Shown here piece by piece: positions 240-3,810 of a DNA stretch of 5,911 nt. The DNA is from Candidatus Desantisiibacteriota bacterium (GTDB lineage: Bacteria > JACRDZ01). The first letter of the stretch is position 1. Every line of letters begins with the position of its first letter. Under the pieces are notes generated by a model. The model had not been told where the DNA came from. It ran no database searches and worked only from the letters and a program-made list of their open reading frames with translations. A program made the translations under genes and the position numbers. The stretch is taken from contig JACQWU010000309.1 of assembly GCA_016209155.1 (NCBI GenBank), positions 1 through 5,911 on the forward strand, read 5' to 3'.

Positions 240-252
240 GCTAAAAAGATAG

Positions 253-280
253 CAATGAGCAATGAGCAACTAGTGATGAG
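253..280. repeat. Short inverted heptamer array (4 units)
   Basis: On the plus strand the units read CAATGAG, CAATGAG, CAACTAG (degenerate) and TGATGAG. These are reverse complements of the CTCATTG and CTCATCA units of the larger array, so the two arrays face each other across a spacer of about 90 bases. Confidence 0.85.
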
Positions 281-307
281 TTATAAAAGATTCAGATTTC
301 TGCTTTT

Positions 308-361
308 TCGTCCCTCGTCCTATCGTCCTAATGAGCAAAGCGAATGGTCGTCCATCATCCT
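308..361. repeat. Second heptamer family (TCGTCCN) in the loop
   Basis: Units are TCGTCCC (308-314), TCGTCCT (315-321), TCGTCCT (323-329, after one extra base), TCGTCCA (348-354) and a variant TCATCCT (355-361). A stretch starting AATGAGC at 330-336 and ending GCGAATGG interrupts them and resembles the flanking array units. The same seven-base period as the outer arrays suggests a common origin by slippage or by a shared amplification process. Confidence 0.65.
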
Positions 362-369
362 TCTTGTTA

Positions 370-446
370 CTCATTGCTCATCACTCATCACTCATTGCTC
401 ATTGCTCATCACTCATTGCTCATTGCTCATCACTCATCACTCATTG
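370..446. repeat. Tandem array of 11 perfect heptamers
   Basis: Eleven contiguous 7-base units, each exactly CTCATTG (call it G) or CTCATCA (call it A), in the order G A A G G A G G A A G. The two unit types differ only in their last two bases. The first four units repeat as the last four, which fits duplication of a 49-base block. Seven-base tandem repeats between genes are known in cyanobacteria (STRR sequences); whether this array is related cannot be told here. It is transcribed in the antisense (TGAGCAA/TGAGTGA type) sense as part of the efflux operon if the operon reads through. Confidence 0.95.
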
Positions 447-452
447 CTAAAT

Positions 453-1919: not shown

Positions 1920-3206
1920 TTACCACTCAAAATTTCCCATTGCTTTTTTTAAGTCCGCTAATGCTAATTGATAATCATAAAGAGCGCTATAATAATTAAT
2001 GTTTGCAGTAATGAGCATTGAATGCGCATTTAAAACTTCTGTATTTGTAATGAGATTTTCCTTATATTTATCTTCCGTCATTCTATAATTTTCTTTGGCC
2101 TGTATAATGGTCAGTTTGAATGTTTCTATTACCTTACTTATTGATTCAGCATTTAAGTATGCCTGTTTTACCTGAAGTGAAATCCGATCTTTAAGCTCAA
2201 AAAGCTGCAGCTGGTTTTGCTCTATAATGGATTCCTCCTGATAAATTTTGTGTTTTGTTTTGTCATGATCCCAGATAGGGAAACTGGCATTTAGAGCGAT
2301 ATTCCACATGTTATTTTTTGTCATTCCACCGTCATCAATGTTATAAGCGCCGATTAAAGATACTTTTAATTTATTTTCAGTCGCGGTAAGGTCTTTTTTA
2401 GATTTTTCAATTTGTATCGCAAGATTTACTGCTTTTATTTCCATTCGATTATTATAAGCATTTGACAGGCATTCTTCATACTTCATTGAAAACCCCGGAT
2501 GTTCTTTATAATCCATAAGAACAATAGAACTATCCATTTCCCTTCCTAAAAGTTGATTAAAAGAAGTTTCGGAAATTCTAATGGAATTTTTCGCTTTAAG
2601 CAAAATCTGCTGTGCTTCTGCAATTTTTACCTGAATAGAAAGCAAATCATTTTTAGTTGTCATTTCTAACGCGAAAAGATCATTAATTGTTTTTTCATGC
2701 GCTTTTAAAAGAGAAATAGATTCATTTGCAATATCATAAAATTTGTACGCTTTTAAAACATTAAAATAATTTTGATATACAGCATAAATGATATCCAACT
2801 GTGTGATTTTTGAATTGAGTTCATTATATTCAAGCCCCAATTCGGAAATTTTTGCACCTATCTTCGTTGCTCCGGAAGTATATAAAGGATATATAACCTG
2901 AAGTTTAGTATTGTAAACATTGGCATCACCTGTTTTACTGCCCTGTGTAGGTGCTTTTTCAAGTCTGGTATATAAAAAACTTGAGATTACACTAGGATAA
3001 AATAGAGTTTTAACTTCTTCTACTTTTTCACGGGCTTCAATAATTTTTTGCTCATCAATTGCGGTTTTGCGGCTGTTTTTTGTTGCCATATCTATACAAA
3101 CGGCAATATTATATTCAGATATTTTTGGCAGTTCTTCTGCTCCTGTTAATGAAAAAGGTAAAAAAAGAAATAGATATAAAAATATCATTTTAACTTTTTG
3201 TTTCAT
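1920..3206 (-). CDS. TolC-family outer-membrane efflux protein
   Basis: This 428-residue protein should form the outer-membrane channel and periplasmic alpha-helical tunnel of the exporter. The ATG at 3204-3206 has AGGAG at 3214-3218 with seven bases between; a longer frame exists upstream but would overlap the regulator gene. Residues 1-23 look like a Sec signal peptide (basic start, MIFLYLFLFLPFSL, then TGA before EE). The mature part has the two repeated OEP halves of the family. The first, about 30-225, contains YPSVISSF, then VIYPLYTSGATKIGAKISEL, then a helix pair ending SFNQLLGRE. The second, about 245-425, contains ALNASFPIWD at 304-313, then long amphipathic helices, then LITNTEVLNAHSMLITAN and YDYQLALADLKKAMG. 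Length is normal for the family. It starts 13 bases after the TetR stop, so the two genes are co-transcribed. Confidence 0.93.
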   Translation of the reverse strand: MKQKVKMIFLYLFLFLPFSLTGAEELPKISEYNIAVCIDMATKNSRKTAIDEQKIIEAREKVEEVKTLFYPSVISSFLYTRLEKAPTQGSKTGDANVYNTKLQVIYPLYTSGATKIGAKISELGLEYNELNSKITQLDIIYAVYQNYFNVLKAYKFYDIANESISLLKAHEKTINDLFALEMTTKNDLLSIQVKIAEAQQILLKAKNSIRISETSFNQLLGREMDSSIVLMDYKEHPGFSMKYEECLSNAYNNRMEIKAVNLAIQIEKSKKDLTATENKLKVSLIGAYNIDDGGMTKNNMWNIALNASFPIWDHDKTKHKIYQEESIIEQNQLQLFELKDRISLQVKQAYLNAESISKVIETFKLTIIQAKENYRMTEDKYKENLITNTEVLNAHSMLITANINYYSALYDYQLALADLKKAMGNFEW

Positions 3207-3213
3207 AATTAAA

Positions 3214-3218
3214 CTCCT
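3214..3218 (-). promoter_or_regulatory. Shine-Dalgarno site deciding the TolC start
   Basis: AGGAG on the minus strand, seven bases before the ATG at 3204-3206. It lies in the 13-base gap after the regulator's stop codon and selects this start over any codon in the 31-residue in-frame extension inside the regulator gene. Confidence 0.85.
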
Positions 3219-3219
3219 A

Positions 3220-3810
3220 TCATTTTTTAAAAATACCTGAAGAAATAATTTCCACAATAATTGGAAGCTCTTGAGAAAGAGGATATGATTTAGTACCACT
3301 GCATATCCATTTCCATATTAGAGAGTCAATAAAACCAAATAAGGCATAGGTTAAACTCCCGGCATTCAATGATTTTATTTCACCTTTATTAATACCTTCC
3401 TGAATAAAGGGTTTAAATAAATCAACCTGTTTCCTGCGATGCAGAAGAAAAGCTTCTTTACCAAATTCACTTTTTTCATGTATAAGTATTTGATAAAAAT
3501 TTTTATTTTTTTCAAAATATTTTAGATATGCGCATACTCCTGCTTCAAGACGTTTATGTGTGCCCTGCTGTTTTGATATTTCCTTAAAAACAGCAACTTT
3601 TAATTCATCCACTTTATATTCTATTAAGGCTAAAAATAAATCTTTTTTATTTTTAAAATATCTGTAAATTGTTCCTTTCCCAATTCCGGCTTTTATAGCT
3701 ATCTCTTCTATTACTGTATTATGATAACCTCGAGAAGAAAATATTTCGAGCCCTGCATTTAAAATCGCATTATATTTTTGTTCTTTTTTTTCTTTAATAA
3801 GTATACGCAC
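3220..3810 (-). CDS. TetR/AcrR-family transcriptional repressor
   Basis: This 196-residue protein is probably the local repressor of the efflux operon. The start is GTG (3808-3810) with AGAGG at 3820-3824, nine bases upstream; I see no nearby in-frame ATG. Residues 13-63 are a typical TetR N-terminal DNA-binding domain: ILNAGLEIFSSRGYHNTVIEEIA (first helices), then KAGIGKGTIYRYFKNKKDLF, which holds the recognition helix (GTIYRYF). Residues 64-196 form the helical ligand-binding and dimerisation part, which is variable in the family (YFEKNKNFYQILIHE; LTYALFGFIDSLIWKW). It is the first gene of the operon, 13 bases before the TolC-type gene, and a palindrome overlaps its promoter, which suggests autoregulation. 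Family and role as efflux regulator are well supported; the inducer is unknown. Confidence 0.93.
   Translation of the reverse strand: MRILIKEKKEQKYNAILNAGLEIFSSRGYHNTVIEEIAIKAGIGKGTIYRYFKNKKDLFLALIEYKVDELKVAVFKEISKQQGTHKRLEAGVCAYLKYFEKNKNFYQILIHEKSEFGKEAFLLHRRKQVDLFKPFIQEGINKGEIKSLNAGSLTYALFGFIDSLIWKWICSGTKSYPLSQELPIIVEIISSGIFKK

Follow-up and report, generated by a model that had tools for sequence, protein, structure and literature searches.

Why does one junction of a drug efflux operon hold a long pair of facing heptamer arrays, and do these arrays serve the genes on either side? The window considered here (the whole stretch of 5,911 nt) carries on its minus strand an operon of drug-pump type in the order TetR-type regulator (3220-3810), outer membrane efflux protein (OEP, 1920-3206), membrane-fusion adaptor (HlyD_D23, 453-1892, with its stop codon at 453-455) and RND pump. 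The pump is represented by its start (ACR_tran, 3-230, Pfam E-value of 9e-17), with an ATG at 228-230 that is supported by the paralogue N-terminus MFLPEFSVKNP and a Shine-Dalgarno sequence, GGAGG, at 235-239, outside the hairpin. As a sequence-only reading of this DNA had pointed out, the adaptor-pump gap (231-452) measures 222 nt, against 27 nt (1893-1919) and 13 nt (3207-3219) at the remaining operon junctions.

Anatomy of the element

The element (250-449) is a composite inverted heptamer repeat, in which two arms of one family enclose a copy of another. On the plus strand, the family 1 left arm (253-280) reads CAATGAG, CAATGAG, CAACTAG, TGATGAG, and the right arm (370-446) is a contiguous run of eleven perfect units, six CTCATTG and five CTCATCA, with a 21-base higher-order repeat; TRF on 369-448 gives a score of 132 and likewise prefers a period of 21. 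The facing arrays described by the sequence-only reading are thus present, with the refinement that the shorter arm comprises three perfect units and one degenerate unit (CAACTAG). The 16-base complementarity and 10-base inverted ends that it listed proved exact: 251-266 (AGCAATGAGCAATGAG) is the reverse complement of both 391-406 and 412-427, and 250-259 (TAGCAATGAG) mirrors 440-449 (CTCATTGCTA). The order of unit types along the eleven-unit arm is itself palindromic (ABBAABAABBA), an arrangement expected by chance about 1 time in 32.

What had been passed over as a spacer (~302-360) turned out to be one member of another dispersed hairpin family. Next to the left arm, 281-301 holds what is left of the family 1 core (TTATAAAAGATT), judged against cores such as TTGAAAAAATATTTTAA at three host loci (L011, L014 and L019), together with a junction segment ahead of the insert. 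The nested family 2 copy follows on the plus strand (302-360, GCTTTTTCGTCCCTCGTCC..TAATGAGCRAAGCGAATGGTCGTCC), recognised by comparing genome copies by eye and best conserved at 325-353; its left edge probably falls at 301/302, where the other family 2 copies would place it.

Two dispersed families and the probable arrival of the window copy by insertion

Searching the 3.08-Mb draft host genome with CTCATYRCTCATYRCTCAT returned 55 matches (31 + 24) against none for the reversed control, and the heptamer arrays are not a product of chance. The matches fall at no fewer than 12 places, window included. Nearly all of these follow one plan, AAG-(CAATGAG/TGATGAG)n, a core such as TTGAAAAAATATTTTAA, and (CTCATTG/CTCATCA)n-CTT, with facing arrays of the window's architecture seen at L011-L021. 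Nearly all family 1 copies in the host are inward-facing palindromes, and two-armed copies face inward without exception both here and in a Nitrospinae genome (G098), two unrelated genomes. Arm lengths are unequal among loci (10 versus 4, 3 versus 10, 4 versus 11), and higher-order repeats of 14 and 21 bases differ from locus to locus. Own-genome copies are almost all intergenic, and usually lie after a stop codon and before the following Shine-Dalgarno sequence, mostly ending beside AGGAG. As read from translated ends, the flanks appear to include murF-mraY (L011), rpmJ-rpsM (L012) and leuC-leuD (L019), genes so varied that no functional theme is evident. One one-armed heptamer array lies within an open reading frame, without introducing a stop (L037:785-812, G000:C313). 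Separately, a third short repeat (CTTCAGTCTAA / TTAGACTGAAG, with CTTCAGC units) occurs near the elements at L035, L041 and L108, also in the host's own genome.

The second family was traced with GTCCTAATGAGCRAAGCGAATGGTCGTCC, taken from the window's former spacer; allowing up to 3 mismatches, the genome has it at nine places, against none for the control. Its surroundings are GGACGAR heptamers in a hairpin arrangement with a left boundary of GCTTTTTCGTCC. Family 2 copies lie inside family 1 in the window, at L018 and at L042, with a different entry point in each; at L035 a copy adjoins a family 1 arm, and the other five of the nine (L038-L041 and L043) lack a neighbouring family 1 array of at least three units. 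That four of nine should coincide with family 1 junctions has a chance probability in the order of 1e-7, a rough hand estimate that treats junctions as equally likely, ignores gap length, and takes ~16 junctions with family 1 among the ~2,500 genes extrapolated from 145 per 174.6 kb sampled. Because the point at which family 2 has lodged in family 1 differs among the three loci, we regard the window element as a nested composite, and this composite nature is new. At a further locus, upstream of an apparent recN, the two unit types form a chimera, its left arm made of about eleven GGACGAR heptamers and its right arm of CTCATTG units (L034, ~640-790, G000:C187).

Most likely, to judge from comparison of junctions, the window copy arrived by insertion. 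A paralogous efflux operon in the host, whose adaptor is 56% identical, has an adaptor-pump gap of just 32 nt; this paralogous operon, in place of an orthologue, stands in as the empty site, the collection holding no close relative of the host. Adaptor-pump gaps in phylum relatives, a comparison that the sequence-only reading had proposed, are free of the element and measure 54, 20 and 0 nt, and heptamer arrays are absent from all three phylum relatives searched. This type of operon can therefore do without the element. At the corresponding junction in one relative there is a small palindrome of another kind (L105, 2898-2952, G001; CCGTTTAAACGGTTTAAAC..GAACCGTTTTA).

The account that we favour, with a probability of roughly two in three, is that a dispersed repeat, palindromic and built of short units, came to lie between the adaptor and pump cistrons, grew by slippage under near-neutrality, and later took in a nested copy of family 2. 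A family 1 copy would have reached the gap by some copying process. Its arms would then have grown separately by slippage in 7-, 14- and 21-base steps, as the unit patterns suggest, and such independent growth would give rise to eleven units facing four. Family 2, with its GGACGAR units, would have inserted afterwards to yield the 200-nt composite, which may have persisted because the stretch from a stop codon to the following ribosome site tolerates such sequence. On transcription, a large predicted hairpin would lie in the pump mRNA past the adaptor stop.

Mobility, which had been put forward before on inspection of the window, is thus indirectly backed as to insertion, by the short paralogous and relatives' gaps and by element-free orthologous sites in Nitrospinae. 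The copying step itself is putative, since target-site duplications were not seen (the longest symmetric direct repeats are mostly 0-3 nt) and a mobilising enzyme did not turn up; E. coli RayT as a tblastn query gave no match in 223 kb of host sequence or 458 kb (overlapping) of G098, a search of low coverage. Plasmids returned no match to the repeat, and viral contigs a single chance match without an array.

The same element and its sites in other genomes

The earlier suspicion of an element family holds well beyond the host. An exact 26-mer of units was matched in eight stretches belonging to seven further species, sporadically across several phyla, and the unrelated Nitrospinae genome carries ~40 copies of the form AAG-(CAATGAG)n ... 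(CTCATTG)n-CTT, sharing the AAG/CTT ends. In Chlorobi genomes, at L028 (Chlorobiaceae, 3411-3800) and L026, the same units form very long arrays of more than 40, accompanied at L028 by a small opposing arm. The host is much poorer in tandem arrays than Nitrospinae: 7 arrays were counted in 80 gaps, 2 of them of period 7, against 40 above threshold in 194 Nitrospinae gaps, 31 of them of period 7, many palindromic and drawn from many unit families.

Two ribonucleotide reductase genes of G098 carry the element in-frame (open frames of 615 and 843 aa), orthologues at L090 and L091 have no insert at that point, and other Nitrospinae orthologues have different arrays there, such as (AACACCAG)n facing CTGGTG units or (CAGTCAC)n. 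Across the loci surveyed (L084, L095, L085-L089, L092 and L096), this loop holds in-frame arrays of 6-8-base units that differ between Nitrospinae genomes; the G098 paralogues (L084 and L095, on C22 and C74) share a near-identical insert within ribonucleotide reductase proteins that have otherwise diverged. Orthologous intergenic junctions of G098 and its relatives are, in a similar manner, often filled by an inverted array of another family: one (L136, 18005-18090) shows CAATGAG, AGTGTCA, ACGCAGATAA and ACAACTA types across four genomes, and another (L144, 9647-9718) shows AACTAAC, AGTGTCA and ACTTTATA types among G098 and its relatives. Several orthologous junction pairs in which both members are positive have just 0-2 8-mers in common, and element-free orthologous junctions exist as well (L144 10937 and L136 7594). 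Inverted arrays of unrelated unit families, differing by species, also occupy L144:12498-12655 and its orthologues. Nested palindromes of two unit families were seen in Nitrospinae at L142:10404-10579 and in the G107 orthologue of L144:3715-3988 (L190).

These exchanges raise a tentative alternative, one compatible with the favoured account, in which some process would single out hairpins or period-7 arrays and fill their sites anew with other unit families, the window composite being an intermediate. The differing unit families at single junctions and at the single in-frame ribonucleotide reductase site speak for it, as do the three loci where a family 2 copy is lodged within family 1. Across species, however, site co-occupancy did not exceed expectation (odds ratio of 1.4, p of 0.45), in a small test of 35 comparisons with a criterion that gave zero false positives in 300 shuffles yet missed some known arrays, and recurrent independent insertion at a few tolerant spots accounts for the data too. 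Given that outcome, independent occupation of such spots is the simplest reading. It is in the same tentative sense that inverted short-unit arrays may form a class that keeps its architecture and sites while its unit sequence changes, with hairpin sites re-seeded and nested composites as intermediates; if true, unrelated arrays of 6-10-base units would be re-seeding existing sites, even within an in-frame ribonucleotide reductase loop. We found no description of cross-species re-occupation or of the in-frame ribonucleotide reductase site in a limited literature search. The ribonucleotide reductase loop, the common operon junctions and the nested copies offer concrete places to test how such elements form.

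Folding, regulation and known systems

A less probable alternative is that the element is a selected, REP/BIME-like intercistronic hairpin, which would retard 3'-5' degradation of the adaptor transcript or uncouple adaptor and pump expression. It lies between the adaptor stop and the pump Shine-Dalgarno sequence, and the long hairpin proposed by the sequence-only reading is indeed predicted to be stable: for 231-452 in the sense orientation, the RNA has a folding energy of -67.4 kcal/mol and a z-score of -3.96. What did not stand is an RNA-specific fold, since the opposite strand (-57.7 kcal/mol, z-score of -5.90) is at least as unusual, and the hairpin is therefore a property of the DNA palindrome. 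At co-directional loci of the own genome, the sense strand has the lower energy in 11 of 11 and the lower z-score in only 3 of 11, so that the antisense z-score is equal or stronger at most loci, and Nitrospinae copies show no clear bias in energy between sense and antisense. Selection on the sense-strand RNA was accordingly rejected and the energy bias treated as compositional, although weak RNA selection would also fit the lower sense energy at all eleven loci. Many co-directional junctions carry copies, but 80-84% of all junctions are co-directional regardless, and an enrichment there was rejected on that background.

The arms tell against selection on pairing as well. In the own genome, identity between arms of one element does not exceed that between arms taken from separate elements (p of 0.59-0.80), and in Nitrospinae it is if anything lower (p of 0.83-0.999). 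Rfam returned no family at gathering score, with matches only far below it; no intrinsic terminator (a G+C-rich stem followed by a T run) was found in 150-600, and a promoter scan gave no signal above shuffles. With no arm co-variation and no specific stabilisation of the sense RNA, regulation is unsupported, and a selected RNA function of the hairpin is not indicated. The suggestion that the element tunes pump dosage or protects mRNA is not supported on the same grounds, and also because functionally unrelated junctions are occupied; the 32-nt gap of the paralogous operon points the same way. The mRNA may be affected incidentally, in the manner of REPs, and any influence on pump level or adaptor-mRNA decay would be of that kind.

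Many uncultured bacteria contain heptamer arrays, which have previously been interpreted as a regulatory code. That they are sites for a global regulator, as proposed in Geobacter, or for a translation regulator, as proposed for TAACTGA repeats, is very improbable here: arrays often abut a Shine-Dalgarno sequence, as in PMC4679880, but the flanked genes have no evident common function and relatives interchange unit families at one site. The present data favour a dispersing repeat that turns over rather than a regulatory code.

A literature search for the literal repeat gave nothing relevant; several described systems resemble it in part. REPs are palindromes of 20-40 bp with a GTAG/CGTC tag (PMC3733652). 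Like REP/BIME sequences, family 1 consists of dispersed palindromes between co-directional genes, some within genes (PMC3733652), but its ends (AAG-CAATGAG ... CTCATTG-CTT) lack the tag and its arms are tandem heptamers. Rickettsia palindromic elements, in the partial account cited in PMC3733652, lie in-frame in protein genes, as the element does in Nitrospinae ribonucleotide reductase; by that description they are set apart from it by its tandem units, its other host and its almost wholly intergenic own-genome copies. TAACTGA heptamers, found in Beggiatoaceae, Cyanobacteria and Bacteroidetes with 7-nt indels between strains (PMC4679880), share the 7-base unit, a mostly intergenic position just before start codons and a sporadic distribution across phyla, but have a different unit and are almost only direct (169 direct sets, one indirect repeat; PMC4679880).

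The closest likeness is to Geobacter metallireducens, for which paired tandem arrays of octa- and heptanucleotides (classes 1-3) are described on opposite strands at variable distance and were proposed as sites for IHF/HU-type global regulators (PMC2700814). As far as the available part of that description goes, the two share tandem units of 7-8 bases, two arrays on opposite strands, multiple copies, intergenic location and variable spacing; the Geobacter arrays have three to five tandem units each, with unit sequences that differ from the window's, and nesting, found in the window element, is not among the features reported there (PMC2700814). Judged by its sequence, and within the same part of that account, the window element belongs with these paired opposite-strand arrays, a known but poorly understood kind.
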